Under the pieces are notes generated by a model. The model searched no databases. It was given only the letters and a program-made list of their open reading frames with translations, and was not told the DNA's origin. Positions 17,146 through 61,680 of a stretch of 64,000 nt of DNA are shown here, in pieces; positions within the stretch are counted from its first letter, which is position 1; each line of letters begins with the position of its first letter. The stretch lies in the NCBI RefSeq assembly GCF_032854445.1, contig NC_088304.1:33846810-33910809 (forward strand), in the 5' to 3' direction. The position numbers and the translations under genes were made by a program. The stretch is from Liolophura sinensis (lineage: Eukaryota; Mollusca; Polyplacophora; Chitonida; Chitonidae).

Positions 17146-18560
17146 TTATATGGGCGCGAGGGTGGTGGGCGCGGGTGCAGCCGTGGGTGCAGGTGTAGCC
17201 GCGGGTGCGGGTGAAGCCGTTGTTGCGGGTGCAGCCGTGGTTGCGGGTGCAGCCGTGGGTGCTGCCGTATTGATGGGTGGAGGCATTTTAAATTCTATGT
17301 CGTCTGGTTCGGCAGGCTCTCCCATGTCTTCTCCAGGCTCCTCAGTTACAATTACAGTTAAGAAATTATTAAAAATTTAACTGTTGTTGTTGTAGTCATT
17401 CATTGACGTAGCATGTGATGGATATAGGCCTTCAGTTTACCAATCGATCAATACTTCTTGATATTTTTTAGAATAAAACAGGATGTGACAGACCTAATCT
17501 CCTCAAGCATTTGCTCACGTGTCAAAACGACGGTAGCTAAGAGCTATTCTGCCCAACCACTCTCACACTGTCGTCGCGACTCTTTTTTACTCTGTATGAT
17601 GTTGTCTTTCATACTTTTGAAATCTTTGAAATCTCTCTAGAAACGCCTACAGGTTACCTTCATTTTTACTTCAATGAGTTAATTAAATTTCACATTTCAG
17701 ATGTTCAAATTAATGATATACTATGGCATAATGAAAAAAACCAACTATGGTATAATGAAATTATGAAAATAATAAAAAAGCAGGCTGTAACTGATTACTA
17801 CAGACAAATAAATTATGAATAAAAACAATGAAAATTAGTACTCGCTTGAAAAGGTATTTTGCACATACCGAGTGTTCACTGGCTAACACAGCTTGCGTCA
17901 CTATTCACTCATATCTGAAAACCAGGTATCTTTCGACACAGCATAGAATCCATATGGATTCCAATGATTCGACTTTGAAGGAGTTGTTCTACTTGTGATA
18001 TTGAAAGGAAGATGACTAACAAACGCGTTCCTCAAGAGGTTCCGTTGTTCTGGAAACACAGGTGTTTTGGTCAATGGCCATGACACAAGGGACGCTGGTT
18101 CAATCCAATTTCCGGATGGCGACCGCACATTTTCGAGATTTTCTCGCATTCTTTGGTAACAACAAACGAAGAACAGATATTGTGGGCGGGCTAACATTAA
18201 GTTAGGAGTTAAACACTTGCCATTTGTCAGAGTGGGATGTATACAGAGCACACTCTGTGGATGAACGCCTGTGCCTTACAAAGTTCGTCAATGGATTGCC
18301 AAAGATCGGCGGTTTATTCCAAGTACTCGTGTTCCTCCGCCATTGACATTAATAAGTGAAATACATGTATTCTTGAATATAGCCATAAACACCAATGGGT
18401 CAATTCCAGTTAATGTTTTAGGTTTAGATGTCCACTAATAGCATGCTTATAGGAACAAATGGAGAGTTTACTCACGTCGTTTACTCACTGCCGACCTGGT
18501 GAGCTGTGTCATCAACACCAACACAGAGACGGTGAGCAATAGCCGATGTCTCACGCCCAT
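17146..18560 (-). CDS. Gene A: small secreted Thr/Ala/Pro-rich protein (2 coding exons)
   Basis: Signal exon 18560-18476 encodes 28 residues: MGVRHR, a Leu/Val core, then SAVSKR. It ends in AAACGAC|GTGAGT, a phase-1 donor. An acceptor (TTTCTTGCAG) lies one base upstream of the ATG. The last exon ends at TAA 17148-17146. In its open frame it reads DMGEPAEPDDIEFKMPPP followed by about six TAAPA(T)-like units (18-bp DNA repeats), ending TTLAPI. The best in-phase acceptor is CTGGAG|AA (exon 17330-17146). It gives CAA (Gln) across the junction and an 89-residue product, but its pyrimidine tract is poor. The first AG in the tract (TAACTGAG|GAG) would shift frame and stop after about 17 codons. Membership of the four-gene set is firm from the signal exon and the EPAE box. 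The function is unknown, a mucin-like secreted peptide is one guess, and a decayed gene cannot be excluded. Confidence 0.6.
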
Positions 18561-19877
18561 ACTGCAAGAAATATAACAAAACACATCTATATTTTAAAGA
18601 TTCATATTTGTAGGATTCTCTATAAAACATGAGGGGTAGAATTAATCTTTTTTGTAATGTTAATCAGATATAACACGCTATCTCTGTATGCATTAAAATG
18701 ATAATGCTACAACTAGGAAGCACTCTGATGGTACAAACTTCCGCCTCGGCTAAACATACAAATTCCCCCACTACATCGCTTCCGCCCTCTCTTTATGAAA
18801 AGTCTCAAGAAAGGGACAAGGTTAGGCAGGTAAAAGAAAAACACTCAGTTTTGTCCTATTTGGTGATTGTGAAGATAGACAGACAGACAAATGAGCAACG
18901 GCAATAACATTACCTCAATGGTGCAGATATTGACTGGAAAGAAGGCAATCTATTCCAGACCATTAACAACTTATTCATTATAGACAATGTTCTGATGCTG
19001 GTATTTACATCGTTATATCATACAATGCAAGTATCGACCGTGAAACGTGGCGTTAAAAGAAAAGAGAACCCTGTACCAAATGTACATATCAAGCAATGAA
19101 GTATGTAAATAAAGTTTGAACAACATACCTTTTAATTTTGTGATGACTGAAATGCCACAGTTCAAGGTAAGCTAACAGCGCACATTGAGAAAATCGAAAC
19201 CGTCACGATGTTATCAATTTTAACTAATCAGGAAAGAGTTTTTTCTACAACCCTGGAACGCAGCTGTTTCCACTGATGTCACAAGAATCCTGTTTTGCCC
19301 TTTAATCTTGTGGACGTAAGACACAATTGACGTTTCTGTAACATGGCGTATCTAATGACCTAATTCAAGATTCAAGATTATAAATTGATTTATAGACGTT
19401 CAAAAAAAAAGAAAAAAATAGCCATGACACTTAGTTCTGTTTCCATCCCTCTTCCGAAAACACATCATTTGTTGTCTTTTTTTAAAATAAGTAATGTTTA
19501 ATATAAAAAAATTACCTTCTACCAGTTACCTTCTAGTAACTTTTGAATTACCACTTAAGGAAGGAAACAGCAGTCCCAACATGGCTTAAAACTGCTGGGA
19601 TTATATTTTCTTGAAATGAATCACCAGTGATCTGTTTCCTTTCAATAGAAGGACATCGTTGATGGTCCCAGCATTTTCTATCCTAGAGCAATGAGTTTTA
19701 TTTATATAATTGTTGTTAAATATCGAACCAAAAAATTATTTATTTATACTACGTCGGTTACACTTATGTTATGCTTATAAGTGTAAGAAGCTGGTAAAAT
19801 TCCTAGAAGTCTGAAAATAGTAAACATGAAGTTTGAGAATAAATAATAATGAAGAATTTAAGGAATAAAGTACCAAC

Positions 19878-19920
19878 CTGAGTAAAAGTCTGTGAGTCTC
19901 TCGGAGGAAAAATTGAGAAA
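19878..19920 (-). other. Gene A predicted 5' non-coding exon
   Basis: It lies about 30 bases downstream of a TATA box and ends in ACTCAG|GTTGGT (donor read as CAG|GT at 19878/19877). It would splice to the acceptor at 18563-18562. The donor is weaker than those of the other genes. The start is estimated from TATA spacing only. Confidence 0.4.
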
Positions 19921-19946
19921 TGTACGTTTATCCAAAATGTCAGTCA

Positions 19947-19954
19947 TTTATATA
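19947..19954 (-). promoter_or_regulatory. Gene A TATA box
   Basis: TATATAAA on the minus strand, in the context CATGTATATAAATGACTG. The inferred transcription start is near 19917-19922. Confidence 0.4.
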
Positions 19955-20199
19955 CATGTTACCGTAAACAACATGATGTAAAAACAAGTATAGGCTCATT
20001 CCGAAGTGAACATTTCGTGAATGTGTCAAAACATCTACTTTAACACTCATAATAAATCCGTTTTATAGCCCAAAAAAGCGAATGTCATCGTGACCTTTAT
20101 GTGGTATACCATCTTTCGATTATAATCACCAACTCAAATGTTAATGTTATAATCAAAAGTTGTGACTAATCAACTGGTTTTTTTTCTTTTCATCGTTTT

Positions 20200-20465
20200 T
20201 TACTTAGAGCATGACATCCACCACTATATGTTTTCTGCCCGCGTTTGTTTGCTTGTCTGTCTGTCTGTCATCAAAGACATGTGCAAAGATTTGGATAAAA
20301 TTTTGAATGACCTTGGACCACTTTTTTAAATTTTGCTGACCATTCAGAACCAAATCTGTGAACATTTTTAAAGCAAGCATTGTCCTTTTGTTTCAACTCA
20401 TTATGTGGTTTTGTACATTTAGTTGTGGCAGAGGTTTGTCTCGAATTGACGAATTCTTCTACGCT
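20200..20465. repeat. Repeat with CTGT run (R3)
   Basis: GCTTGTCTGTCTGTCTGTCA, CAAAGATTTGGATAAAATTT and GTGGCAGAGGTTTGTCTCGA look like the 3' region of a common transposon-derived repeat. The 60-kb piece has related parts in the opposite sense. Confidence 0.45.
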
Positions 20466-20502
20466 GAAAAAATAAACATGTTAATTTTAAGAGAAAGTTT
20501 GT

Positions 20503-20650
20503 TGTTATTTATTTATTTTATTTGATTGATGTTTTTCACTTATACGACGGCGGCCAGCATTATGGTGGGTGGAAACCGGGCAGAGCCCGGGGGATACCCA
20601 CGACCATCCGCAGCTTGCTGTCAGACCTTCCTACTTACGGCCGGAAAGTC
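20503..20650 (-). mobile_element. SINE family 1, 3' half
   Basis: From the tail to GGAAGGTCTGACAGCAAGCT. The head is absent. Confidence 0.8.
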
Positions 20651-20914
20651 TGTTGTCTGATGAGATGAGAAAATGTATTCTGTTATCATACCACAATATT
20701 CTGTCATGTTTAACGTAATGTCAACGTTAAGTGTAATAGAATCTGTATGTCGAATTAATAGAATAGCAGTAGGTGAGTTACATTTAGCAGAACCATCAGC
20801 TGCAGTAGTAGAATCTAAACATTAATATTTTAAACAGACTTGCTGTTTAATTAACATATTAATTTTGGGTGTAACTTGACGCCTATACTCTGAAAAACCA
20901 GTCATACTATACTG

Positions 20915-21415
20915 CTAGTGTTTCTGCCATGTTGCTATGCTCAACGTTTCTGCCATCTTTCTATGCTTAATGTTTCTGCCATGTTGCTATGCTTAACGTT
21001 TCTGCCATCTTGATATGCGTAGTGTTTCTGCCATGTTGCTATGTTTAACGTTTCTGCCATGTTGCTATGCTTAACGTTTCTGCCATCTTTCTATGCTTAA
21101 TGATTCTGCCATGTTGCTATGCTTAACGTTTCTGCCATCTTGATATGCGTAGTGTTTCTGCCATGTTGCTATGCTCAACGTTTCTGCCACCTTGCTATGC
21201 TTAACGTTTCTACCATCTTTCTATGCTTAATGTTTCTGCCACCTTGCTATGCTTAATGTTTCTGCCATGATGCCATGCTTAACGTTTCTGCCATCTTGAC
21301 ATGCTTAGTGTTTCTGCCATGTTGCTATGCTTTACGTTTCTACCATCTTTCTACGCTTAATGTTTGTGCCATCTTGCTATGCTGAATGTTTCTGCCATTT
21401 TGCTGTGCTTAATGT
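20915..21415. repeat. 26-bp minisatellite, about 19 copies
   Basis: The unit is TTTCTGCCATGTTGCTATGC plus TTAACG. Variants CTTTCTATGC and CTTGATATGC alternate in a higher-order pattern. It abuts the foldback element by about 200 bases. Confidence 0.9.
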
Positions 21416-21612
21416 GCAATAGCATTATAAATTCGTTGACAGAAGTTAACAGAAGTTAAGATGTATAACATTTAACTTCTGTGGTCCTTTGTCAAAAATT
21501 ACACACTTGTTTTTGAATAATTATGATGTTACTGAAGTATTGAGCTCTTGGTGTCGAAAACGAGCTCATGAACCACATATCAATGACAGGGTGTTGTCAT
21601 GTCACGTGTCAC

Positions 21613-23350
21613 CTCGTCTGGGAGCTAGCAGAGGTTTATCCATCAGGTCGCATACGAAACCTTTGACACATCGAACATGCAAAACAATGGGGAAAACTCT
21701 AAAATGGTGATTCTTAGTGCTGCAACCGTCCACAGCCCCCTAGCATGTTGGTTGAAAGTGCCCCAAAACAAATTTAATCGGTCATGATTAAGTATGAGAG
21801 TGAAACTCATGTTATATATTCTTCAAGACAACCTGGTCATTAAAAGCCAATTCTTAGGTTTCCAGCCCTTGCACTAATCCACTTAAAAACGATCTAATTA
21901 ACGCTAATTATGACTTCTATCGGTCATATCGCGTATCTTTATACCAAAAGATACCTAAGAAATGCTAATTATAAAATGCTGATTTATAAGCTCCAACTCC
22001 ATGATCAAACCCATTTAAGAACGGGTCAAAGGTCAATACTTAGGGTTACATTACCTGAAAACATGGGTATCGGTCACGACTGAGTACGAGGATGAAACTT
22101 ATTTCACACATTTCTCATAACAACCAGATCACTAAAACCCAATTCTTAAGTCCCCAGCCCAGACTAAGCCATTCAAGAACGGCCTAATTAACGCTAATTA
22201 TAGATTTGATCGGTGATGTCACGTACGAGGGATTTTTTCCCAAAAGAAATATTGAGATATGCTAATTATAATAAGGTATTCCAACCCCCTGCATGTACAT
22301 ATACAACTAAGAACGGATCAGAAGTTATCTACACTTTGGCGATGTGGACTTTACAACAAGAGGACACAATGTATGTACACACACCTAATAACTAACTCAT
22401 TTCCTCACACGAGGCATGACCTATAAAAGTCATAACTTGCGTTAATTAGACCGTTCTTAAGAGAATTAGTCCATGGGCTGGAAACTTAAGAATTGGTTAT
22501 AAGGGATCAGGCTGTGATGAGGAATGCATCAAATAAGTTTCATCCTGGTAGTCAGTCGTGACCGATTCCCTTGTTTTAAGGCAACTGAGCCCAAATATTG
22601 ATCTTTGACCCGTTTTTAATTGGTTCTGTGCATGAAAGAATCATTTTGAGAGAAGGCAAAACCTGGGATTAAGGTAGAGGAGGTAGTCTATCTTAATTCC
22701 AGGTAAAACAAATAAACCCAGCCTAAGGAGTAGCACGACTCGGAAGTCATCACTTTCCAGACAAGACAGAGGTGATATTTCCTTCTAATTTTTGCTGTTT
22801 AGATTTTGTATTGGTGAAGTGACTTGCAAGCATGTACCCAAGTGTTTTATTGTGAAATAAGCGATTTATTCCTTTACTGAAAATAATTTGGGCCATTTCA
22901 TTACATCTGATCTATTGATAAACCAATCATAACAAAGGATTGAACACATTAAGAAACATGGAGTTGGAACCTAAGAATTACCGTTTTGTAAATACCATAT
23001 CTTAAGGTATCTTGCTGTATAAATTTACATTTCCTCGTACGCAATATGACCGATAAAAATCATAATTAACGTTAACTAGGTCGTTCTTAGGTGGATTAAG
23101 GCATGCCCTGGGAATTTAAGAATCGGTTTTTAATGATCAGGTTGTCATGAGGAATGTATAAAGTTTCATCTTCGTAATCGTGACCGATAAAATTAGTTTT
23201 GGGGCAACCCCAATGCTAGGGGGCTGTGGACGGGTGCAGCACATAAGAATCACCATTTTAGAGTTTTCCCACGTGGTTTTGCATGTTTAGTGTGTTAAAC
23301 CTTTCGTACGTTAAACCTCTGCTAACTCCCAAACTGAAGGCACAGACGAG
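21613..23350. mobile_element. Foldback-type element: 1.7-kb nested inverted repeat
   Basis: The outer ends pair: CTCGTCTGGGAG at 21613 matches the reverse complement of the sequence ending CAGACGAG at 23350. Inner landmarks keep the same axis near 22481, for example CCGTCCACAGCCCCCTAGCAT (about 21727) against ATGCTAGGGGGCTGTGGACGG (about 23212). Each arm also holds direct repeats of about 300 bp (AATTAACGCTAATTAT with ATCGGTCA). There is no transposase frame and no clear target-site duplication. Arms are diverged but readable over several hundred bases. Confidence 0.7.
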
Positions 23351-23619
23351 TGATTTTACCGAGATCTGGATATTTACGCGACACGCTTAGGGAAACAGGT
23401 TTTAGTTTAGAGCTAGCAACCATTGTAAACCAAGTGCCATAGTATCTGAGGGAAGGGTTGGTGCCGCTTGGTTAAGATACTTGTCTTAGATATTTTTTTA
23501 CTTTGATCTAAAATAGGATTGGGTTCAAAACCGTGTCTTCATTAACCAACCTTCACAGAAGGATACATTATCACCGTTGGCCAACGAGCGACCACCAGTC
23601 AGCCTGAATATGTCTATGA

Positions 23620-23865
23620 TTTATTTAATTGGTTGGTGTTTTACGCCGCACTCAAGTATATTTCACTTATACGACGGCGGCCAGCATTATGGTGGGTGGA
23701 AACCGGCAGAGTCCGGGGGAAACCCCACAACCATCCATAGTTAGGTGGCAGACCTTCACACAGCCAGCGTGAGTTGGACTTGAACTCACAGCAGCCGCAC
23801 TAGTGAGAGGCTTCTGGGTCATTACGCTGTGCTAGCTCGCTAACCAGCTGAGCCACGGAGACCCC
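23620..23865 (-). mobile_element. Near-full-length SINE family 1
   Basis: The head (GGGGTCTCCGTGGCTCAGCT) is at 23865. There is a small deletion in the middle, and box B GAGTTCAAGTCC is intact. Confidence 0.85.
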
Positions 23866-23901
23866 TACAAATATGTCTTTAAATACGACACGTAAGATTG
23901 G

Positions 23902-24157
23902 TGTATTTATTTATTTACTTACTTGATTGGTGTCAATCTCTCAGGGATATTTCATTTATACGACAACAGACACCGTTATGGTATGGAAAACCGAGTAGAC
24001 CGCGCGGGAAGCCTACGACCGTCCGCAGGTTACTGGTAGATCTCTCCACATCCGACCGGAGAAGAAGCCAGCATGAGCGAGATTTGAACTCACAACGACT
24101 GCATAGATGAGAGGTTACTAGGTGATTGTGCTTTCCAATCGAACACGGATGCCCCTC
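23902..24157 (-). mobile_element. SINE family 1, diverged
   Basis: Same orientation, 40 bases from the previous copy. The head is mutated (GGGGCATCCGTGTTCGATTG). Confidence 0.8.
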
Positions 24158-24159
24158 AG

Positions 24160-25265
24160 TGCTATATTTGACGGCAAAATTAGTAATACCAAGCATACAT
24201 TGATTGTGTATGATGTGTGCATTGTAGATTGATAGATTGATTGACTAGTGAGCTCATTGTCGATCAACCATTCCATCGACTTTTCCCCTTGAGTTTGACT
24301 CAGCCCATAATACTAACCGACATGCCTTAAGCTCTATTTTTTTCGGTAAGGAGTTAAACACTAATAAATCTAATATCAAAAATGTAAAACAAAATGTAAA
24401 AAAAAGAAAGTAAAAAATTTTCTTTAAATTCCGATTCGGTTGGATAGTTGCTGGATTTATTCGGTTGAGATTTTTCTGATTTCCCCATCCATGATACCGA
24501 AAATATAAAACGCTTATACAACCTTTTCGTGACCTTAGGGTAAATTACAGTGCAAAAGGGTTGTTAAATTAAGTCCTCAGCTGGCAAGGTCGCAGGATGG
24601 GCAAACTCTATGACGATATTTTCGACGCGATCAAGCCCACCGGCTACACAAAGTGCATGAATCTGTCTGTAATGACATCCTCATATATGGTTCACTTGCA
24701 TGCTCTCATTAGTCGCTACAAATTACAACAGACCCAAACGATAAAATTTAAAAGGGTATATAAAAACAGGTGCCTAATTACAGGTGATCGGTGATATGCC
24801 ACTCCTCTACGGTACGGTGCGCTTGATTAACAGGTGTTTTAAGTATATACGGTCATTTCTGATAGCTTTCTTTATTCCAGGCCTGTCAGTTATGCGCGGC
24901 GAAATCACGCTTTAGAGCGAGATTTGCAGGCTATCGGATAGACTAGTGTTCACGTGTGAGTCCTATCGTTTTGATTTAAATCCACGTTGATAAACGGGAT
25001 TTCGCACATTACGAGAACTATGTCCCCGTACGAGGCCTGTGGCTTGCCAGCTAAGTCAGATATAAACATGTGTTTAATTTTGAAAAAGCTTTAAACATGT
25101 CAACGCGTAAGACCCTGCATGTGTCTTCAGGGAACAACTGATTGACAGGTTAATTGGGGTGCAGCAATGTTGGAAATCGCCAGCCCTTTCACATCGTTGA
25201 TTTCTCCTGGGTTCTCTGTCGTTTCTATGCAGGCAAAGCCAAAATGGTTATGAGGATGTGTGTAA
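24160..25265. other. No gene seen
   Basis: AT-rich. Frames under 70 codons without features. Confidence 0.45.
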
Positions 25266-25269
25266 ATTG

Positions 25270-27184: not shown

Positions 27185-27190
27185 TTTATT
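27185..27190 (-). terminator. Gene B candidate poly(A) signal
   Basis: AATAAA on the minus strand about 430 bases past the stop. A second AATAAA is at 27134-27129. Which one is used is unknown. Confidence 0.35.
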
Positions 27191-27618: not shown

Positions 27619-29292
27619 TTAGACGGTTGCAGAGAACGGCTGTCCTGGAACTACGAAGACTGAAGGCTGACCAGGGTTTGGAACAGGATTCCCTGGCCCA
27701 GTGGCAGCTGGGGTTCCTTGAGGGGCTGTATCAGCCGGTGGGACAGGAGCTGATGGATTAACTGGAGCTGGATTAGCCGGGGGGGTGTCGATGACAGGAG
27801 TGCGGGCCTGTTGGGCGCCTCCTGAGGGCGGCATTGCTGCTCCAGCGGGCGTTTGTTGTGCTTGCATCGACGCCAAGAAGGCCTCCAGCATCATCCTGAA
27901 CTCCATGGATAAGCCCCCCGGTGGTAGTCGGCCGGCAGTTTGAAGCGGCGTTTGAACGGCAGCTTGGTTGGGATAAGTTACGCCACCATCTCCGAACTCG
28001 GAAGGCTCGCCAAAATCCTCCAGAGGGTTGGGGGTTGCGCTTGCTTGGTTGCGCATCAGTGCTCTCATAGCGATTGCCTGAGCCCCTAAGGGTAAGTTTG
28101 GCATGGTTTGGAGTGTAACCCCCCTGTCTCCCAATTCGGCGGGCTCCATGGGGTCCTCGTTACTCAGTGGAGGAATGAGGGGCCCAACCTCTGTGAAGGC
28201 AAAAAACAAAACATTATATTCTGACATTTATTTAACTGACTGATGCTTTACGCCATATTTATGCGACGTTCCACTTATGACGGCCACCTCCATTGGTTGC
28301 GGGAAACCGGGCAGACCTTCCCAAGTTGTACCAGAGAGGAAACCAGCATGAGCTGAACTTGCCTACAGGACTACTCACCTGTACGTCTGGCTACATGTAC
28401 ATGTGAATGGCACCAACCCAATCAAGGTTTACTTATAAATACTCTAGTCATTTTTATGTTTTTCAAGTACGCCAGGAAGTAAAAAGAATATTGTTCAATC
28501 ATTTTCCTTAACAAATGAATAAACCACAATCCCGTGTTAAACGCCACGTGCAAATGCAACCTAATCACATCGCATAATAAGTCAAAGAATAAAATGATTT
28601 TACTTTGTCTGTGATTCATAAAATGAGAAACAACCTAAACCCACTATATATTTCTATGGAACGTCTAATCTTGAAAGGTACGCATACATTGATATGGACG
28701 AGCTGACAAATTTTCCCCACAACCATGAAGGTCGTAACAGAGATGAGGTATTTGAGGGTTATGAATACAGTTCACGCGCAATCCCTTAGGCAAATCGCTG
28801 TGATATTTGATATTAAAATATTTTCTTTCATTCCTCTTTTTTCACCTATGATCACTTACATATAAAATTTAATTAAATTATTTATTTATTAAATATGTTT
28901 TGTTTCATTCCTCTGTGTTTTCAGCCTATGGATCACTTACGCCAGCATTATGGTGGAAAGAAACCAACTACCACCCATAGGAGGGTGGCAGACCTTTACC
29001 TGTTTGACTGGATTGGAGGCAAACATGAGTTGCACTAGAACTTACAGCAACTGCATCATAATCTATTCATCTTTTGATCGTGAAACATGTGAAATAATGG
29101 TAATTCGGGTTGCTGTACTCAACGCCAGATTCATACAAGCGCTAGGCGGTACACAATGCCCTTTTAGGGAACATTTTTAGTACCGGTAGTGATATGTAGT
29201 AATACTGGAAAGAACTTACGTCTTTTGACGACAGAAGCAGCTTGGACGTAGGTGACAGTGATCAGTAGAGCGCAAATCAGTTTCGACGACAT
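27619..29292 (-). CDS. Gene B: secreted Pro/Ala-rich protein, 214 aa (2 coding exons)
   Basis: Signal exon 29292-29220 encodes 24 residues: MSSK, a hydrophobic core, VQA (likely signal cleavage), then ASVVKR. It ends AAAAGAC|GTAAGT. The acceptor CCTTTCATTTCCAG lies two bases before the ATG. The last exon 28190-27619 follows TTTGCCTTCACAG and starts AG, so C+AG makes Gln25 and the frame continues VGPLIPPLSNEDPMEPAELGD. A second copy of the acidic box, LEDFGEPSEFGDGG, is at residues 81-94. Residues about 118-137 (LSMEFRMMLEAFLASMQAQQ) could form an amphipathic helix. From there to the end the chain is Pro/Ala/Thr/Gly-rich and ends PGQPFSATV. There are no cysteines after the signal. Predicted path: secretion, cleavage after VVKR, and a mature chain with N-terminal Gln. 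No known domain is recognised. Splice sites and phase agree with genes C and D. Confidence 0.82.
28228..28365 (-). mobile_element. SINE family 1, deleted copy in gene B intron
   Basis: ATTTAACTGACTGATGCTTT tail, then GGAAACCGGGCAGACCTTCC (the middle block is lost). Confidence 0.65.
28930..29060 (-). mobile_element. SINE family 1, heavily decayed
   Basis: CGCCAGCATTATGGTGGAAA, GGTGGCAGACC and GCAAACATGAGTTGCACTAG recall the middle and box-B region. It is also in the gene B intron. Confidence 0.45.
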
Positions 29293-29938: not shown

Positions 29939-30005
29939 CTGTAGATAGAATATGGTCCCCGTTCAAATTTGATCCCTAGTGGTTAGTGTATCGTTGTTGC
30001 CAGGA
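29939..30005 (-). other. Gene B predicted 5' non-coding exon
   Basis: It ends CTATCTACAG|GTAAGC at 29939 and begins about 30 bases after a TATA box. It would splice to the acceptor at 29296-29295, just before the ATG. No long ORF is present. The start is estimated. Confidence 0.5.
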
Positions 30006-30030
30006 CTGACTAAAGTTTGCTAGGAGACTC

Positions 30031-30039
30031 TTATATATA
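30031..30039 (-). promoter_or_regulatory. Gene B TATA box
   Basis: TATATATAA on the minus strand (context CAGTATATATAAGAGTC). The inferred start is near 30000-30005. Confidence 0.5.
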
Positions 30040-30745: not shown

Positions 30746-30749
30746 CACC

Positions 30750-32220: not shown

Positions 32221-32224
32221 TGTT

Positions 32225-43107: not shown

Positions 43108-46100
43108 CTATTTCATTCCAAGAGCACCTCCGGCACGGGGCGCCACTGGCGCTGCAACAGGGGGCAGCACTGGCGCTGCATCAGGGGGCGCCGCGCTTGC
43201 CGCAGCAGGGGGCGACCCAGGAGGGCGAGGGGCGACTCCCAGAATGCCGGCAGGAGGAGCAAAGGGAAGATCAAGGGCGGCGAATATGGGTGGATACCCA
43301 CGCGGTAAAGCTCTACCCCTTTGGCTCGCCGTCGTCCTGCTTCCACGGAATGGCTGGTATCCGAATAAGCAATCTCCTGGTTCACATGGTTCACCGAAAT
43401 CCTCTAGGAAATTCGGCATGACACGGTACTCTGCAAAGAAAATGTTCAGTTTTACAAGACTTCATACCACTGTGTAGAACATTTGAAAGTTTAACTTCAT
43501 CTATGCATGTTTACGTATTCAATGGTGATATTTCGCTCTGAACTACCCCTCTGGCGCTAGACGCTGTACACTTAGAGAATGACAAATACTGGTGGAATTG
43601 TCATATTTTTACCACAGATGTAAACAACAATCAAAATTTTCTTTGTTTGGTTCATTTGGCTTATAAGTTCAAGGAGTCCCACAGAAGTAGAATTCCAAAA
43701 ACAGTAGTTAAAGTAAAAGAAGTAGGAAGATTAATACAGTGATCTTAATTGCAATTTATTGGATGTCACATGTCTAGAATTACTCAAAATAGTGTGCTGT
43801 ACTGTGATCACAGAATTAGGTGAAAAATGCACTGATGTTAGTTACAATTTCTTACACCTCACTGGTCTAGTATTACCCAGAATGGGGTGTTGTCATCACA
43901 TTTAACATACAATAACAATAATACACTGCAAAGGGAAGGTTTTGTCTTCTCCAGGCCCGATCTTTCTCATTCGCTAAACCCTATACTGTTCACCTGCTAG
44001 CTTTAAACAATCCATATATTGCAAAAGCTGTGAAAGATGTTTATCCCATGTACAAAAATCCCATCTACTATCTGGATCTGCCCTAAGGACTCATACATAC
44101 ACATGTGATAATAGAGGTAACAGAGTCCATTACCCGGTGACATAGCCCATTTCTGGATGATATGACCCATTACTGAGTGATACAGCCCACTACTAGGTGA
44201 TATACAGACCATTACTCGATGGTATAAGCCGTTACTTGGTAATATATGCCATTACTTGATCATATAGCCCATTGGGTTATCTTCCCTCAGACACCATCCA
44301 GATGGCGCTCCGCTTACTTGACCTTAGGTCATAATTCAGTGTCATGTCTCTGCCCTCTGTGTCTGTGTGTAACAAGCCACATATAGCTTACAATGATGTC
44401 ATTCAGTCACTCGTTAAATCAGACATTATTCACCCAACCATAGCTTCCATTTATATGTACAACAAACAAAAAGCATGCTATGTTTACGTAATGAATATAT
44501 TTTTCTTCCCATTTCCTATATACCAGTAAAACTCGTACAGAAGTTCCTCTGCTAGATTTTTTAAAGTATTTCAGCTGGTCGTGATTAGATTTTTTCTGTC
44601 TGACTTTCATATTTAATAAAATACACATGCAAAAAGTTGATTTATTACGCAAAATACACGATGTCGTGCAGATGGACAAGAAATGACGTGAGCAAGGTGG
44701 CGACAACCAAGCCGCGTGGATGTGATGTCTGTGCTGAGAGTTAACGAACAGAAACAAACAGTAAAGACCTCTCTCAGGATAACAATCCCAAAGAATCGCG
44801 CAGGTGTGGTTTTTATGGCAACATCGTGCATTATACCAAGATATCATGTCTGCACCAAAATGCTGCAACCATTCTCGCCTTAACCTTTTTACTATATCTC
44901 TTGCCAGGAACACATAAAGAACCAGACTGATCGAGAAAAGCGGTACATTCAAGGGCAAGCCACTTGAAACAGAGTAATACCCATATTAAAGTTTGCTACA
45001 AACCATAACGTGACAAATAGCTTTGTCTATTTTTCTATACTTAAATTAATTTGCACATTTAGTCAAATGCTTACACTCTATAGATCATACTGACGTTATC
45101 ATCACGATGATGTTAATATCCCTTGTTATCTAGGCCTACCTGAGTTTGACCTGACGTGTACTTAGTTTGTGTAGGAACATGACGTGTACTTAGTTTATGT
45201 GAGGACATGACGTGTACTTAGTTTGTGTTAGGACATAACGTGTATTTAGTTTATGTAAAGACACGACGTGTATTTAGTTTGTGTACTTGGTTTGTGTTAG
45301 GACATGACGTGTACTTAGTTTATGTTAGGACATGACGTGTACTTAGTTTATGTTAGGACATGATGTGTACTTAGTTTGTGTTAGGACATGACGTGTACTT
45401 AGTTTGTGTTAGGACATGACGTGTACTTAGTTTATGTTAGGACATGACGTGTACTTAGTTTGTGTTAGGACATGACGTGTACTTAGTTTGTGTTAGGACA
45501 TGACGTGACTTCATGTTAGCATAGTAAGTATAATCCAGAGTTAGAACCACACAATGTCCATGGTGCAGAATTCATAAGGTTCTTGTCCAGTGAAATTCAA
45601 GTTTAAAATTCACACGTTTGACTGTATCGTTTTAAGTATAACAGATGCGATTTTCATTGGTTTTATTGGTAACGAATACCCCCAAATTTATCGGTGTACA
45701 ATGTACTCTAATTATTTTACAGAGAAACAGCTGTTCACGGTCATGCTATGTTAAAATCGTAAGACAAAGCAGTTCGTACTATTGTAAATCACCTTATGGT
45801 CGAAGCACTTTCCCTCAGTCTCAAAACGCTATGCTGTTTTGTCGATTTTAATAAACTAGATTCTGAGTAAAATCTTTTCACAGGTTGTCAACTGACCGCT
45901 CTTTGATTGGAGAGTTAAAACACTTGAATCAATCAGAATCGTTGTGTCAAATGACCGAAAAAAGCAGAATTCAATTTCCAAAATGGTGACGGAATAATTT
46001 TTACGTCAGATGCAGTCATTGACACGCTAATGTGGGGAGATCGGTTAACACAGATGGCATTTAGTGTGGCTGTGATTTCACAGCTCGAGGTTCTTACCGG

Positions 46101-47406
46101 AAATCTGGTTATGTCACATAAGAAGACACATTTGCATATATTCAAAACCACCAAGGCTTTCAATGTAAAAAAAATCCATATTTTCATTTCGTTAGCGTTC
46201 TATTTATAATAACAAATGCATTAAAAGCTAACAAAATGCATTAGGAAAAAAGTGATAAACATGAAACCCGTGCGTTATGAATACTTAATGTACGGTATAC
46301 TAATGATGTCTTTGTACTAGTATACTAGACAATTTTATCATCTCAGAATGATAAGGGTTAAAGGTTAATGGGAGAGTTAGAATCTGGAAATAACCCCAGC
46401 CAACAGAAATTAATAAAGTCACGGAACTCGAGAAATAATCGATTTTGCATGTATGACACGGAAATGTATCGAGTATAAAGTTTCTTCAGTGCGGTACAGT
46501 TCATAGTAATGTTTGTGGTATAAAATCAGCCGTGCATGTCAAAATATAATGTAATCTATACTGTACATGTACAGCCTTCAACTCAAACCCAAGTTCTAAC
46601 GCTGCGATTTGTTTGCATGCTGCTAGTACAACGAATTGTTGTCTTTGAACGTGACATATTCCTCTATGCATTGACCATGCGGCTTCGTCTTATTGTTAAG
46701 ATACAGCATGTACATAAAAACTTGTACTCATCCAGAGATCACATGAATACGGAACAAATTTGTCGTGATTCACTGATATCATTCGTGACGTTTGTTAGCA
46801 GGTTATACCGCATTGTACAACGTATAAAGAGGTACTATAGTATACCAAGAATACGTTTAACTGTCCTCAGATACTCCCTTAAATGCGAAAATTAAACCAC
46901 AGCTGCACGAAAATCCAGTCCTGCATGTCTTAAGTATGTTAACTTGATTGCTGTTTGTTAAGCAGATGTTATATGTACATAATCGGATCCTACACCTGTG
47001 ACCAGTGAAGCGTGAACAGGTGGTGTGGTTTATAAATGTAGGAGGACGAATGGATAGTTTTGACACTAAACAGAGGACAGTTAAATTCAGTATGGAAAAA
47101 GAAATTTATCCATATTCTAGAATGGATAACACTGAATTCTGACATGTCTGAGACAAAATTTCTGCATCTATGGATATCACTAACACATGCTTTTTTTCTT
47201 TTTAGTTTGTCGTGGCTTAGACAGAATTTCAACGTTCACGACCTGTCAGAATGTTACCTTGTAAGTGGTACATTAGAGTTCAAAAGTTCAGTACTGAGCT
47301 TATTTAGTATACATGTACACTTACGTCTTTTTACTCGATCAACAGGTGACGAGTTGACAGCCAAGGTAAGCAGCAGCACTCCCAAGAGTATCATTTCCAC
47401 CTGCAT
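43108..47406 (-). CDS. Gene C: secreted Pro/Ala-rich protein, 134 aa (2 coding exons)
   Basis: Signal exon 47406-47325 encodes 27 residues: MQVEM, a Leu-rich core, NSS, then PVDRVKR. RVKR is a full furin-type R-x-K-R site. The exon ends AAAAGAC|GTAAGT. The acceptor TGATAATTACAG precedes the ATG by six bases. After a 3.9-kb intron the last exon starts at 43430 behind ATTTTCTTTGCAG with AG, making Gln28. Then come YRVMPNFLEDFGEPCEPGDC, a short basic stretch with RGR and PRGYPP, and a Pro/Ala tail to GGALGMK with TAG at 43110-43108. The box is nearly the same as gene B's second box (LEDFGEP). Cys43 and Cys48 flank it and are the only cysteines, so a local disulphide or a dimer is possible. The function is not recognised. 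Confidence 0.8.
44127..44275. repeat. Degenerate 22-24-bp tandem repeat
   Basis: About seven units of the form CCATTACTgGGTGATATAGC, in the long intron of gene C. Confidence 0.75.
45152..45512. repeat. 28-bp minisatellite, about 13 copies
   Basis: The unit is GACGTGTACTTAGTTTGTGT plus TAGGACAT. It lies in the long intron of gene C. Confidence 0.9.
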
Positions 47407-48572: not shown

Positions 48573-48600
48573 GAAGATAGATTTGATTTTTGACATTCCT

Positions 48601-53160: not shown

Positions 53161-53167
53161 CCCGATA

Positions 53168-53530: not shown

Positions 53531-54295
53531 ATCTGGATGCTGACCGTTCTCTGCTGGAGAATGATACTAAACCTACGCTGCGAGTCATCTGGCGATTGAA
53601 AGCCAATGGAGATCCAGTGAAACAGAACCGTAAGTTTGGCATAGGGTGCAGCACTTAAACCTAAATCGACAGAATGCTTCACAAGACAATTGGGAGGCCA
53701 CATGTACTTTTTTTAAAACTTTGAGTGGGTGTTTCATTTCTAAATGTGAGTCCATTTTTTTTATCAATATCATATTTAAAATAAAAATATAATTTAAACC
53801 ATATGCATAACAGTTGTAACATTTGTATTTAATTAACAAAACAAACTTCATGATCACCATCGATCAAACGTCAAACATAATTAATAAGTCAGTGGATTCA
53901 TACAATGCGGGTAACAAGTAAATATATTTCATACAATGAGTCAACAAAAGCGATTTGTACACCAAACCGGATACCGGCAAATTTCCATCTCATGTTTACG
54001 TTACCCTTATAACATGGAGCCATCTTTACGTGATTGTCTATCGTAGCTCTATCCAATTTCCGATATGAGATGATTTGCGGATATGGATTGTTGAGACTTT
54101 AACCTACATAACAAAACAAATCTGTTCTTCTCTGGGAAAGCAAGCTTTTACACACCTTTTTCCACTGTAAACAGAGTTATCACACTATGTTGTGGTCAAA
54201 TGTTCAGTAAGTTAGAAAGTCACTTGGGAACCAACACTGTGCTCGCGGAGTGGGTCTTATGTAGTAATGCCATTGAGCAGATGACGTATCTATGC

Positions 54296-57200
54296 CTAAG
54301 CTGCGGGACCAGCTTGTTGTAATGGAGTTCTTACTACACCTGCAGGTGCAGCTCCTGAAGCTGGAAGAGAGCTCCCAGCCGGTGCAGCGCTGCCTACGGG
54401 TGCCAATGCCTCGATGGGAGCAGCTGGAGCTGCAGGGGCTGGAGGAGGCGGCGGCGTCCCCTCAATCTCGAGCGGTTCAGTGGGCTCTATTTCTATCGGC
54501 TCTGTGGGAGGTTGAGGCGGTTGTGTAACTGCCGCTGGGGCTGGTGCTAAAGTTGGAGCAACCGGAGATAGTGTACTTGGCAAGAGGTCTACAGAAGGCA
54601 ATTGCACAGCGGGAGTCACGGTTACGTACCCGGTGAAGGACACTGCTCCCTGCCCACCTTGATTCTGAACCACTGCACCTGTTCCAGTGCCTTGTTGCGG
54701 CTGGTTTAATCCAGTCTGCCCGAACCAGGGAGGGCGATAGACTTGTTCAGTTTCTCTGATGGGTGGAGCTTGTCCTGAAACTGACAGTTTCTGTGTGCCA
54801 CTACCCGATTGAACACCTGTAAATCCTCCTAAAGAGTGGGGTCCAGCTTGTTGGGTTGCTTCCGCTGGTTGAGCTCCTCCTGGTGGTGGTGCCAGCCTAC
54901 GTGGTTGAGCCATTCCTGCTGCTTGCGCCGTGCCTGTTGGTTGTGCCATTCCCGTTGGTCGTGCCATTCCTACTGGTGGTGCCATCCCTGTTGGTTGTGC
55001 CATTCCTATTGGTGATGCCATCCCTGCTGGTGGTGCCATACCCGCTGGTTGTGCCAACCCTATTGGTTGTGCTACACCTGTTGGTTGTGCTGCACCTGTT
55101 GGTTGTGCTATGCCAGCTTGCTGATACACTTCCCCCACTCGTCCAACTGGCTGATATACTGTAGGCTGATATACTCCTGCCTGTACCCCTTGTTGTGATC
55201 CTGGTGCCTGCACATTTTGGGCTCCCAATGATCGTGCATTAACTGGTGTTCCAGCCTGTTGTGAAGCACCTGCCTGCGTTCCAGCTTGGTGTGAAGCACC
55301 TGCATGTTTTCCAGCTTGTTGTGCAGCGCCTTGTTGTGTCCCAGCTTGCTGTGAAGCAACCGCCTGTGTTCCAGCTTGTTGTGAAGCACCCGCCTGTGTT
55401 CCAGCTTGTTGTGAAGCACCCGCCTGTGTTCTAGCTTGTTGTGAAGCACCCGCCTGTGTTCCAGCTTGTTGTGAAGCACCCGCCTGTGTTCCAGCTTGTT
55501 GTGAAACACCCACCTGTGTTCCAGCTTGTGTTCCAGCTTGTTGTGAAGCACCTGCCTGTGTTCCAGCCTGTTGTGAAGCCTCTGCAGGTGTTCCAGCGTG
55601 TTGTGAAGCCCCTGTCTGTGTTCCAGCCTGTAGTGAATCACCTGCTTGCGTTCCAGGCCGCAGTGAACCACTTGGCTGTACTGCGCTTTGCGCAGCACCT
55701 AGTTGTGCTTCACCTTGTTGTGTAATACCCTGATTATTTCCCCTAACTGGAAATTCACCTGGTTCAGGTGCTTCAGTGGGCTCAGCAGTAACTGCTTCAG
55801 CTGGCTGACCGCCCACGACTGGCATTTGACCGTCTACGGCTGATGGCTCGCCGGCCTGAACTGATGGTTGACCAGCTTGAGCTGTTGGTTGGCCGGCTTG
55901 AGCTGTTGGTTGGCCGGCTTGGGCTGTTGGTGCAGCTGGGACAGATAAGGCGGCTGGGGCTGTTGTGGCTCCTGGTTGGCTACCTCCGGCTGATGGTTGA
56001 CCGAGTGACGATTGGCCAGCCGAGGATGAAAGGGAAGTCAACTGGCTATTAGAAGTTCCGGTATGTTGTTGCACTCGGTCCGCTTGGAATTCCCATCGTC
56101 CACGAAACGTTCCTGCTCTGTCCGTAGGCAAACTTGGTGACCTACGGAAAACCCACTGACCCGAAATCGGCGTTGGTCCACGACCTGTGACACCTGCGGG
56201 CTGTTGGTATACCCACTTACCGTGGACTACTCCTGGAGCGGCGCCTGCGTTGTTCTTTGAAGGGTGAAACACCCACTGTCCCTTGGTAGTTCCACTTGTC
56301 TGGCTCGTATCTTGGGCCCCACTGGAGGGAACCTGGGCCGCTGGTCCATTTGCGGTAGGCTTTGCGCCGCCAGTTTGTACATTGCTACTAGATGCAGCAC
56401 CAACGGCTTGCCCGTGTCGTGTTTGTGCGACATTTTGCTCGGAGGCAAATGTTTGTGCATTAGCTACGGTAGCGCTTCTCTGGCCAGAAGCTGTCGCTTG
56501 GCCGGGGACAGCACCTTGTGTAGAAACTGCGTCTGGGCTGTGGGCTGTTCCTTGCGTGGGGGAAATTCCAGGATTCGCTGCTGCCCCAGCTTGGATGCTA
56601 CCGTGTTGTTGTCGTTGTGTTTCTTGATTAGTGTACACAGGCGCGGTTCCAGTCGGTTCAGAAGCGGGAATAGGCACCTGACGCCATCCCTGATTACCGG
56701 TCGGAGACGTTTGTCCTTGGTGTGTTGATTGGATCGCATCTACAGCAATATTCCCTCGCGAATTACCGGTATAGACAGGCCCAAGGTTTTCTGACCCAAT
56801 CGCGCGAGCGTACGCTTGGCCCTGTCCATTTGGGGCCACTTGGCCGCCCGTTGCTCCGGTAAATGGTGCCCCGGCTGGCTGTCCAATCTGCTGTGAATCC
56901 ATTGCGTTGTTGACGCCCGCGTCCACCACGGGTCTGAAAGAAGGGGGAGGTGCATTATTCGAAAATCTGAGGAAATCTCCAACGACAACGGTTCCTTGCC
57001 CAAAAGGGACATCGACTGAGGCCTGCGTAGTTTGAGCAAAAACTTGTGCCCCAAGGCCAAATTCAGAGGTAATAAACTGTTCCCCGGTATTGCTATTGCT
57101 ACTGCCGGGAATAAATTGTGGCTGTGCAACTGATCCCACAGGGAACTGGCCTTGGCCGACTACAGCCGGGGCTGGTGTGGATGGGGGCACCTCTACTTCG

Positions 57201-58451
57201 GGTGTCTCTACTTCCACCTCTCCTCCTGTCGCTGTACCCGTTCCCGCTCCCTGCGCAACACCCGTTCCTTGCGTTGGGACGACACCTTCGAGGGCTTCCG
57301 TAGGCTCTACTTCTATCGCTTCAGTTACGGCCTCTGAAAGACAAGAATAAAAAATTAAGTTTTCGAATATCAGCTTTGTCAACAGAAATGTTCCCAAAAG
57401 ATGTCCAACCTAACCATCCCACGGAAACCAAAAAGATTCTGATCTCCTGGTACAAGTCTAATTATAGTCTGAGTCATAATTTTTATTAAAAAAGCATGTT
57501 CTCTGATCTATTCTATTTTAACTGTTTTGTTCAGAAGGTAAGGTGAAAACATTTAAACTAAAAGCCTGAATAATAATACCAGATTTTGTTCAAATACATA
57601 TTATGTCAAGTAAGTTAATCACACTTAACTGACAGCAACTGGAGCTATACACGCAATGTCCGGTGAAGCTAATCATTCGGATAATATAGATGCCACGTAC
57701 AAGTTACTTCTGTTGAAGTATTTACATGAACAGCTATTTATTTATTTATTTATTTTTATTTTATTTATTAATTTATTAGATGGGTTTTTATTTATTTATT
57801 TCTTTATTTGTTTATTTGATTGGTGTTTTACGGCGCACTCAAGAATATTTCACCTATAAGACGGCGGCCAGTATTATGGTAGGTGGAAACCGGGCATAGC
57901 CCGGCAGAAACCCACGACCATCCGCAGGTTGCTGCAAGACCTTCCCACGTACGTCCGGAGAGGAAGCCAGCATGAGTTGGACTTGAACTCACAGCGACCG
58001 CATTGGTAAGAGACTCTTGGGTCATTACGCTGCCCTAGCGCGCTAACCAACTGAGCCATGGGAGCCCAGGATAGGTTTTTTAAGCCGTGCTCAAGAATAT
58101 TTCACTTATACGGCGGCACCCAGAATTATGGTGGGAGGAAACCGGGTAGAGCCCGGGGAAATATCCACGACCATCCGTAGGCTGTTGGGAATGAACAATT
58201 AGAATAAACTAACAAAGGTAAATTAACAAGAGGCCGTATTTCACCGTTTCCGATCGACCATAAGCGAACTATCACACTATGGTCACTGCTCTGCTTTTAC
58301 TCTCCATGCCGTAGTCTTTCATATACCGATATTATAACATAATAATAATAATTATTACATATCATTTTTACTCACGTCTTGCTATCCGAAAAGTCTGGCC
58401 ATCGGGAACGAAAAGAACGCCCAGAATCAGGGCTAGCACAAGTCGGTTCAT
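54296..58451 (-). CDS. Gene D: giant repetitive secreted Gln/Ala/Gly/Pro/Thr-rich protein, 1037 aa
   Basis: Signal exon 58451-58376 encodes 25 residues: MNRLV, a hydrophobic core, VPDGQTFRIAR. It ends AGAC|GTGAGT. The last exon 57333-54296 follows TATTCTTGTCTTTCAG and starts AG, so Gln26 follows RIAR (R-x-x-R) and is followed by AVTEAIEVEPTEALEG. Modules in order: the acidic box; a unique Gly/Gln/Thr region to about 370; four 20-residue repeats from about 377 opening GQWVF, GKWVY, GQWVF, GRWEF; AGQPTAQ-type repeats near 490-510; a second box-like AEPTEAPEPGEF; about fifteen decapeptides GTQAGASQQA at roughly 574-720; short AQPTGMAPPVGM-type units near 766-837; then IEIEPTEPLEIEG near 970 and an Ala/Pro tail ending QQAGPAA. 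It has no cysteine or membrane segment after the signal. This looks like an extracellular structural protein such as a matrix, mucus or adhesive protein (inference). No named family is recognised. Confidence 0.87.
55250..55690 (-). repeat. Coding minisatellite, 30-bp unit, inside gene D
   Basis: About fifteen near-identical 30-bp units encode GTQAGASQQA. One place shows a shortened unit (GTQAGTQVGVSQQ), which suggests slippage or unequal exchange. The 30-bp period keeps other frames open on both strands, producing spurious long ORFs such as Val/Phe/Leu-rich ones on the plus strand. Confidence 0.85.
57786..58067 (-). mobile_element. Full-length tRNA-derived SINE (family 1)
   Basis: Read on the minus strand: a tRNA-like head with box A (TGGCTCAGTTGG) at 58059-58048, box B (GAGTTCAAGTCC) at 57990-57979, the conserved middle with TGCGGATGGTCGTGGGTTTC, then GTATAAGTGAAATATTCTTG and AACACCAATCAAATAAA. 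A long TTTATTTA-rich stretch (57728 on) is its tail. It lies in the intron of gene D. Confidence 0.88.
58070..58188 (-). mobile_element. SINE family 1, 3' half
   Basis: Back-to-back with the full copy and in the same orientation. It holds only the middle and the AAATATTCTTGAGCACGGC end, and the head is missing. Confidence 0.8.
58190..58350. repeat. R2 piece in gene D intron, 25 bases from the signal-exon donor
   Basis: AACAAGAGGCCGTATTTCAC, CTATCACACTATGGTCACTG and CTTTTACTCTCCATGCCGTA match the other R2 copies. Confidence 0.65.
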
Positions 58452-58470
58452 TTCTCTTTTTGTCGTCTAC
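58452..58470 (-). other. Gene D 5' UTR part of the signal exon
   Basis: The acceptor TTTTCATGTTGTAG ends at 58471. Nineteen non-coding bases follow before the ATG. The layout matches the other three genes, whose ATG sits 1-6 bases after an acceptor. Confidence 0.6.
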
Positions 58471-59999
58471 CTACAACATGAAAAACGAACAATTGTTATA
58501 AATAATAATATCGTAGATAGATCTCAGTGTTCATGTACAGAAAATGCGGACCCATCCCTCCACGAATACAATATATCACAAAATGTACATACACGGCTTG
58601 CCGTCCACCAGACCGCACGACATAACCTGTGTAAAAAAAAGTGGCTATCTCTGCGCTATTGCGTTCACTGATTAAGACGACAGCCTAATGCAGTGTTGGA
58701 TCGCTGTAAATCGTGAGGTGTAAATCGTGAAGCGTTAAAACGTTTTTGAGATCAGGTCAAATTGCTCAGGCTATAATTGGAAAGACAAAATATAGGTAGT
58801 TCGCAACACGGGACATGATACAAAGTAATCGTTGTTTAGACGTTAAGGTATACGCCGTACACTACAGATGGCAGTAGAGAGAAACAAATGTATACACAAC
58901 CGTCACATTGTGATCAGAAAGAAAACTCATACACCGAATAAAATACTTATGTTTTAGTTCTTAAGAACTAAACAATTTACAAATAATCTGCTAAACTGAC
59001 AAATTGACGACAGAATAAATTATATTATTGCTACAAACTATCGTGTCATTTATAACAGACTTGGTCTGTTATAGTAACAGAATATTTTTCTTGGGGTAAT
59101 AAGTATGGAGTTTTGCCCAAAATATAACTTTGTATTGTCATAACAATTTAATATTATCTACTCTAGCATCACTCAGAAAAATGATATATTAAATTTAACA
59201 GGTTAGTTTTAAAGTGCAGTTATTTCCACAAACCGTCAAACTGGATGAAATTTATTTGTGTTCGAATTTGGTTTTTTCCCCATAAACAAATATATTAAAC
59301 CAGAACTGTAATCATATGTATAAGTTTAATATATTCCTAAATATTATCTTAATTTAGATTAAACGCATGTGGTTGCGTACATCACATGAACAACTCCATT
59401 TGTACAAATAACATTTCACCGTCTTTCATCTGAAGTTTGGAACCTTTTTATGTTTTCTCATCCTTATAAAAATACACAATCCGGGTTGTGATCGACGGGA
59501 TCAGCGCCTCCACTTCCTGTTTGGCAGCATGCAGTATTTTTTTTTCGGTTTGGAGATATCTTACTTAGGAAAGCATATGTAAAGGTTATCCAACGAGTTA
59601 ATCCACCTTGTAACATCAAGCTATATACGACCAACACAAGTGAACTGTATTTATAACGGCCATTTAATTCTGCGTTACAGGTCTTACATCCTTCCAGCCA
59701 TTCTATGTTAGATAATAAAGCACAATAGTAACAGGTCATTCTGTTGTTGAAAAATAAAACATTTAACGTCCGTGTAAACGGGAAGTAATAGTAAGTAACA
59801 TGGAGAAATATGTGTCGTTGCCTCAAATACACGAGCAATTATTGAGCCGTCTGGAATCCAATTAAACTCTGGCATACAGAAGGCATATCAGGTGAGCGCT
59901 AACCTTCGCCACGGCGAAATGTACAAACTCCTTCACTACAACCAAAGGGACAACTCTCTGCATTTCTGTCCTATAAGTCTTTCGGTAAAATATCGCTTC

Positions 60000-60165
60000 A
60001 AAAAATCAATGATCTAGATGCCAATCGGATAGGCACCAACAAAATGAACAGGTCACTAGTACAGGGCGAATCTGGAGAGAAAATTCATCCAGATCCGTGC
60101 AAAGTGTTTTCCGAAATGTTTCTGTTGGACAGACAGACAGACAAACAAACACCTCCTGGCGGAGG
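60000..60165. repeat. Repeat with GACA run (R3), in gene D first intron
   Basis: ATCCAGATCCGTGCAAAGTG, GACAGACAGACAGACAAACA and CCTCCTGGCGGAGGT. Confidence 0.45.
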
Positions 60166-61379
60166 TGATAATCAGTCATGCGCTGCTAAACAAAAGCTCT
60201 AATAGATAGATTATCTCACTGCACGCCAGTTTTGCCTCCAATACCTACCCGATGCGGCCTGGATGAACTGTCAGATGTGTGGGTTCGTTTCTCTTATATT
60301 GTACAATGTCACGTCACATGAAAAAAATAACTTATCTCACAAAGCCGACAGGCATGATCTTACTCTTAAAAACCGCTGCAGTCATTCTGACATTGCTGTA
60401 GAATCAGGTTTTCTATGAGCCAGAACGAGTTAATTAAGCAGTGGTCATTACGATCGACTGATTAATGAGATGTGTTTTGTGACTCATAATAAAGCCGATC
60501 CGGTTATACCCAGATTATCTGCATGTGGTGATCGTGGTCTTTACAAGGATTAAAGTGTCTATGAGCTCACAATATAAGCCTACCCCCACTCCAGACCGGT
60601 CAATATATATGTACTATATTTCAACCGGTGAACTAAAAGGACTGGTGTGTTTCATGAACAGCAAGATGTCAAATGGATTATGAAACAAGACATAAAGAAT
60701 AACTGATGGTATCTAAAATGTCAGGCACGTATTGATTTGATTTATGAAAAGTTTCATTTGAAAGTCGTCTCACGCGCAGTGTGGTCTCGACGCATGATGC
60801 ATCAAAAATGGTAAAGATTGTCAGTAATTTGTCAAGGGTCGGTGGTTTAGTCCTTCATTCCGGACGCTATGACTCAAGATCTGACCGCCTTCGTATTAGA
60901 GAAAAGCTCTAGACTGTGACGAAACATAAATCAATCAATCAGTTTAAACCAGAGAAAACGTGACATGCTATAGACGTTTCTATATTTCTTAGCGTCAGGC
61001 CCCGGGATCACGAATCGATCTTACACTTACGATCACTTTAAAATTGTTATTTCTGATGAAACAAGCTCAAAATATTGCTTTACATTCTGATTATCGTACC
61101 ACAAACATCGTACCACAAACATCAGCTAATATAACAGAAATAGACACACCAAACTGATTACAATTTTGACTAACTCTAAGATTTAATGAAATTTGACTAA
61201 AACTTGAATAGAAAGTAGTTGTCCAACATTTTTCATTTCTTGCATGTATAAAGTCTTACATGTCACAGATCTCAAAGGCTACTCGTACAATCTTTACAAA
61301 TGTCGGCGGAAGTATTCTCCAGGTTTATATTTATAATACTACTCTATGTCAAGAAAATTGGATTGTCTCAAATCAAGAC

Positions 61380-61440
61380 GGTTTAAAACACGACTGTCTC
61401 AAAACACGACTGCCTCCTATCACGACTGTCCCAAAACGTG
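61380..61440. repeat. Short 18-bp tandem repeat
   Basis: CACGACTGTCTCAAAA-type units, about three copies, in the first intron of gene D. A 14-bp duplication (GTACCACAAACATC twice) is at about 61096-61123. Confidence 0.6.
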
Positions 61441-61618
61441 TTGCATGAATGCAGAGTTTTGAAAAGCGACATCAAGTTTTTAACTTGCATCCCCTTTTTG
61501 AAATCTGAATGTCGCATTTTGAGTCCGCCAGGATTTTGGGGAATTGACCAGTGCTGTTTGATGGGACAAATAAAAGACTGTAATATATGTCCCTGCAAAT
61601 GATATTGGGAAGACTTAC

Positions 61619-61680
61619 CTTGTGGTTTGTGGTGTAAGAAATAGTCTCAGTCCGAAATGTGTATGTCCTGAGTAATTCAA
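61619..61680 (-). other. Gene D predicted 5' non-coding exon
   Basis: The exon ends CCACAAACCACAAG|GTAAGT at 61619/61618. It starts about 30 bases downstream of a TATA box and splices across 3.1 kb to 58471. The start is estimated from TATA spacing. Confidence 0.55.

Follow-up and report, generated by a model that had tools for sequence, protein, structure and literature searches.

Four candidate secreted-protein genes with a common signal-exon plan in the chiton Liolophura sinensis

Abstract

A 64,000-nucleotide stretch of the Liolophura sinensis genome (RefSeq assembly GCF_032854445.1, contig NC_088304.1, forward-strand positions 33,846,810–33,910,809; here the window) contains four minus-strand loci, A, B, C, and D. 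Each gene model joins a signal exon to one long low-complexity exon across a phase-1 intron that lies within a Gln codon. With moderate confidence, A, B, and D, and probably C as well, are read as tandem copies that arose long ago from a single gene for a secreted protein.

Results

An earlier note on the window had described one exon plan shared by four minus-strand loci. All four loci, A (29.3–27.6 kb), B (47.4–43.1 kb), C (58.5–54.3 kb), and D (18.6–17.1 kb), were found on that strand with in-frame phase-1 joins. The signal exon of gene A (29220..29292) has 24 codons (MSSKLICALLITVTYVQAASVVKR plus C), the donor C|GTAAGT, and the acceptor TTTCCAG with the ATG 2 bases on. Its terminal exon (27619..28190) encodes 190 amino acids rich in P, A, G, and Q and carries the boxes EPAELGD and EPSEFGD, which look like an internal duplication. 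Gene B has a signal exon of 27 codons (47325..47406; MQVEMILLGVLLLTLAVNSSPVDRVKR plus C; donor C|GTAAGT), or 23 codons from a second ATG, and a terminal exon of 107 amino acids (43108..43430) with the box LEDFGEPCEPGD near its start. Gene C has a signal exon of 25 codons (58376..58451; MNRLVLALILGVLFVPDGQTFRIAR plus C; donor C|GTGAGT) and a terminal exon of 1012 amino acids (54296..57333), rich in A, G, Q, and P, with tandem repeats of 10, 6, and 7 residues and six EPxE boxes. Gene D has a signal exon of 28 codons (18476..18560; MGVRHRLLLTVSVLVLMTQLTRSAVSKR plus C; donor C|GTGAGT) and a candidate terminal exon of 61 amino acids (17146..17330) in which a GEPAEPDD box precedes A/P/T repeats.

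The four signal exons have a hydrophobic core and end in KR (A, B, and D) or AR (C). The phase-1 donor C|GTRAGT claimed for them was read in all four, and an acceptor precedes each ATG, at a distance that spans 1 to 19 bases rather than the few bases first described. Joined exons give open frames of 214 (A), 134 (B), 1037 (C), and 89 (D) residues. The split codon is CAG or CAA in every model and places Gln directly after the basic residue, a feature absent from the earlier note. Exon-final C and Gln count as one feature because any Gln codon, when split in phase 1, leaves C behind; C stands directly before GTRAGT at 47 of 317 places in 284 kb. Splice signals had been called directly visible. 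At the terminal exons this holds for A, B, and C, whose acceptors are usable (pyrimidine fractions 0.82, 0.65, and 0.88), but not for D, where the acceptor is weak and the predicted junction unproven. Three gene models are well supported, and D is plausible.

All four terminal exons have biased composition, and a hydrophobic leader, judged by Kyte-Doolittle hydropathy alone and not by SignalP, stands before each. The EPxE box reported for every terminal exon was confirmed: A, B, C, and D contain 2, 1, 6, and 1 copies against 0.058, 0.011, 0.137, and 0.025 expected from 5000 composition shuffles each (p = 0.0012, 0.0114, 0/5000, and 0.0248). Acidic and basic residues number 14 and 6 in chain A, 7 and 9 in B, 48 and 32 in C, and 6 and 1 in D. 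Internal dibasic sites are absent from A, B, and D, and two occur in the 1012 residues of C. S-x-E/D motifs number 2, 0, 3, and 0. Tandem repeats were called in C, D, and part of B, and none in A. Separately, gene C contains four spaced G-x-W-[VE]-[FY] motifs (GQWVF, GKWVY, GQWVF, and GRWEF; 56085-56285, minus strand) in an otherwise Trp-poor chain.

Signal exons were scanned for on both strands of 264 kb (the window plus 100 kb per side) as an ATG, 18–40 open codons with a hydrophobic start, K or R as the last residue, and a phase-1 GTRAGT. Exactly four exons qualified, those of A–D, whereas an average of 0.3 did so across 30 order-3 Markov simulations; the reversed sequence gave zero in phase 1 and one in phase 2. 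The surprise is overstated, since the thresholds were set after the four exons were known. When the basic end was not required, 8 phase-1 exons were found (1.8 simulated, 1 reversed), with 3 and 4 in phases 0 and 2 (2.0 and 2.2 simulated).

Searches were extended to the genome (609,464,459 bases, 632 contigs). The pattern AARMGACGTRAGT has 63 sites, fewer than the 349 of the reversed control, and 3 of the 63 are inside the window; the gene C exon ends in GCAAGAC and so does not match. Among the other 60 sites, six have a Met-started frame of 12–60 codons, and three of these frames are hydrophobic, one clearly signal-like and two doubtful. The earlier note had proposed to search flanking DNA for further signal exons; the scan yielded none beyond A–D in 264 kb, and the genome-wide pattern gave one clearly signal-like site, at C10:30.4 Mb. 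A broader pattern, ATG...MGNCGTRAGT, was useless (4417 matches against 7684 in the control).

The C10 locus is recorded here in its own right (C10:30408500-30417700, minus strand). It lies 3.4 Mb away on the same chromosome and has a similar exon plan, with a signal exon ending HKR C|GTAAGT and a 325-residue P/T/E-rich frame approximately 1.1 kb on. A Gln junction was scanned for at this locus and not found, and it has no second copy at E up to 1.

Relatedness of the mature chains was assessed by aligning ten pairs over their first 60 and first 110 residues, with 2000 shuffles each. A and B align at PNxLEDFGEPxExGD, where 0/2000 shuffles were as good over 110 residues. B and D align at GEPxEPxD (0/2000 over 60 residues and 2/2000 over 110), and the two boxes of A align with each other (2/2000). 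An EPxExGD box is common to A, B, and D. Codon change in the A–B box is mostly silent: among ten identical residues, counted by eye, six have different codons, which points to selection on the protein. When 284 kb were searched at low stringency with the start of A, the top two among the matches listed were A itself and B (E 7.5e-4); D was found at E 1.8, level with a chance-like match. DNA coding for EDFGEP occurs three times in the genome (once in the reversed control), and two of the three are A and B. The third, on C4, is in a short Ser/Glu/Arg-rich frame unlike A–D and was rejected.

No paralog emerged from whole-genome protein searches in which the queries were the terminal exons of A and B and, for C, its first 165 residues; a 26% match of the B query on C6 (E 4.5) was discounted. 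These searches leave room for further members, since A was not recovered even from B. At E up to 1, none of the four terminal exons matched a Pfam family, and PDB sequence searches returned 0 matches for C (E up to 0.01) and 0 for A (E up to 1). Rfam gave 0 matches in the window at the gathering threshold, so no iron-responsive element was called.

TATA promoters with non-coding first exons are likely for A and C. The probable core promoter of A (TATATAAG) and its 5′ non-coding exon (29939..30037, minus strand) end at CTACAG|GTAAGC; those of C (TATATAAA; 61619..61715, minus strand) end at CACAAG|GTAAGT. The TATA box is 99 bases from the 5′ donor at A and 97 at C. A TATA box with a donor at 85–112 bases, a range set on A and C themselves, occurs three times on both strands of 284 kb, and A and C are two of the three.

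Left of the window, the minus strand carries in tandem at least two, probably three, genes with phase-1 signal exons and coiled-coil-like Ala/Glu/Lys-rich exons. In window coordinates, with signal exons at the starts, these run from -17078 to -19951, -28644 to -33668, and -42146 to -45397. The genes at -17078 and -42146 have SSEE- or SSSEEN-rich exons, with tails of SSSEENNG and GSSEESGEGNRRRK repeats. A coiled-coil exon of the former matches two exons of the latter (E 7.1e-13 and 7.6e-4) and, besides itself, has no other genome match at E up to 0.001. One of these genes was tested against curated Pfam families and had no match. A 972-residue P/H/Q-rich open frame with EPxE boxes and EPTEGPEWEPEG lies at -54382 to -51467 on the plus strand, opposite to A–D. 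It is a possible fifth member; its signal-exon candidate (-57145) is weak, and the alignment of its start with that of C was not significant (178 and 281 of 2000 shuffles).

The left bounding gene, approximately 112–117 kb left, is an F-box gene (F-box-like, E 8.1e-6, on a protein joined from two frames). Approximately 95–104 kb right, the right bounding gene has an exon with a match to Adaptin_N (E 1.6e-25) and a better one to the HEAT-type Cnd1 model (E 1.7e-32); from its sequence we take this gene to be beta-adaptin-like. Among the frames listed for the approximately 200 kb between them, few of which were tested with Pfam, no other conserved gene was recognized. The right flank also contains a tandem repeat of nearly 5 kb (82457-87194), open in several frames at once, which is repeat DNA and not gene evidence.

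Discussion

Tandem kinship of A and B is supported by their common box, and that of D more weakly. C may be tied to them by its exon plan and by promoter spacing shared with A only. On this basis, the tandem family with a kept start proposed in the earlier note is supported in the case of A and B and has weaker support in that of D. The C|A[AG] Gln split supports it across all four loci, but C gave a negative result when descent was tested on sequence. The description of the mature chains as otherwise unalike holds for C and gives way for A, B, and D, which share the EPxExGD box.

Several results weigh against descent from one gene. The alignments comprised twenty tests. A and B were not significant over 60 residues (153/2000), because the better box copy of A sits further in, and A and D were not significant at either length (586 and 702 of 2000 over 60 and 110 residues). 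C resembled none of the others: at the same lengths, 1969 and 769 of 2000 shuffles were as good against A, 147 and 778 against B, and 1002 and 913 against D. Nucleotide matches between loci are only 33–98 bases at 71–89%, and these are assumed to be dispersed repeats. The repeats of C show little constraint on the protein, since the three codon positions differ about equally (102/124/156, a set that includes two units running off the repeat, 127/105/144, and 32/39/54 differences at positions 1/2/3). The promoter geometry, apart from the fitting of its range, was not found for D in 284 kb, and for B only a looser form was found. For gene B, two frames of 157 and 143 residues, longer than the one modelled, follow acceptors of lower quality (0.41 and 0.53). 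The D acceptor at 17330 is GGAG behind a purine-rich stretch, and D has alternative frames of up to 124 residues behind other acceptors; a box like that of B was not found among the parts of these frames listed. Sites with G before AG, and hence the 17330 acceptor, are dropped from the acceptor and frame listing.

The lack of similarity of C leaves room for a mixed origin, in which the family comprises A, B, and D, and the same cluster also contains C as an unrelated gene for a low-complexity secreted product, with an exon plan like theirs. Phase-1 signal exons also occur in the neighboring coiled-coil genes, so phase is not special to A–D. Such an origin is nonetheless rather unlikely: C has the same exon-final C and Gln split as the other three and the promoter geometry of A, whereas the signal exons of the flanking coiled-coil genes end in G. 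A separate doubt concerns D, which might be a copy that has decayed, or might pair a signal-like exon with simple-repeat DNA by chance. Its 61-residue exon is mostly an 18-base tandem repeat behind a poor acceptor. We hold this possible, with somewhat less doubt than a mixed origin, and set against it that the GEPAEPDD box matches that of B at both lengths and that the D signal exon passes the same scan as those of A–C.

Many peptide precursors have a signal, a short propeptide, and a KR|Q junction. These are present here, and B and D are short, as precursors of small secreted peptides of neuropeptide or antimicrobial type, freed by KR cleavage, would be. Precursors of peptide hormones have several internal dibasic release sites, in contrast to the counts of zero in A, B, and D and two in C, where few are expected anyway given the scarcity of K and R. 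The chains also lack a strong positive charge, C is very long, and the peptide explanation is very improbable.

Under the preferred reading of A, B, D, and probably C as tandem copies, we infer splicing, cleavage, secretion, disorder, and role from sequence features. The leader would be removed by signal peptidase. A furin-type protease might then cut a short propeptide after K/A-R and expose a Gln able to cyclise to pyroglutamate. With no dibasic site inside them, A, B, and D fit a single release cut. The released chain, rich in P, A, G, or Q, would probably be disordered, and calcium, iron, or partner proteins might bind to its acidic EPxE boxes. The chain may be a component of extracellular matrix in shell plate, sclerite, radula, cuticle, or mucus. 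A secreted structural or matrix role would fit the composition of this family, known here from this genome alone.

Fast-evolving repetitive secreted proteins are a kind already known in molluscs. Such low-complexity proteins are common in mantle secretomes of shell-forming tissue, for example the shematrin and KRMP families (PMC4897951). Molluscan repetitive low-complexity secreted matrix proteins are marked by a signal peptide and a biased, repetitive chain; A–D have hydrophobic leaders and biased chains and, except for A, called repeats. Like shematrin- and KRMP-type proteins, A–D would be secreted and low-complexity, with family expansion and fast repeat change; they differ in P/A/G/Q composition with EPxE boxes, a comparison made by description and not by sequence (PMC4897951). 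The chiton Acanthopleura granulata has 31 silk-like protein genes, 27 with signal peptides (PMC7850002). These likewise pair a signal peptide with a repetitive low-complexity chain, and by description gene C would suit the class. RTMP1, from the chiton Cryptochiton stelleri, is secreted and has a disordered, repetitive part; its regions are rich in Gly/Ser, followed by Trp/Phe and His (PMC6351634). A–D would resemble it in the first respect and lack its region plan, their composition being set against its description and not its sequence. A gene family of Schistosoma japonicum also keeps a similar signal sequence while the rest of each product is new (PMC3434034). Its copies are spread across 18 scaffolds in association with repetitive elements, whereas A–D form a local cluster. 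Among the matches listed in open PubMed Central literature, as titles and abstract starts, there was no chiton shell-plate proteome, no paper on the A–D locus, and no description of the A–D family or of a Gln-split signal exon.

A gene cluster for secreted disordered matrix proteins has a vertebrate likeness, for which no sequence kinship is claimed. The vertebrate SCPP cluster encodes such proteins in P/Q-rich and acidic types, with phase-0 introns and, in the acidic members, S-x-E/D motifs. All four A–D models have phase 1 instead, and A–D are poor in S-x-E/D motifs, while the neighboring genes are SSEE-rich. It is possible, and put forward tentatively, that the approximately 200-kb interval between the F-box and beta-adaptin-like genes is a chiton-specific secreted matrix cluster with two or more chemistries, paralleling the SCPP cluster but independent of it. 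One chemistry would be that of EPxE chains, rich in P/Q and released at KR|Q; another, that of Ala-rich coiled coils whose Ser-Glu-rich tails may be phosphorylated.

Secreted matrix genes that evolve fast are difficult to detect through sequence similarity. A kept signal exon with a Gln-split intron may flag relatives after the chains have diverged and would allow the family to be traced across chitons. If the tentative cluster is real, one locus would supply interacting parts of a mineralised tissue, and expression of the entire cluster in one tissue would tie a single locus to plate, sclerite, or radula building.

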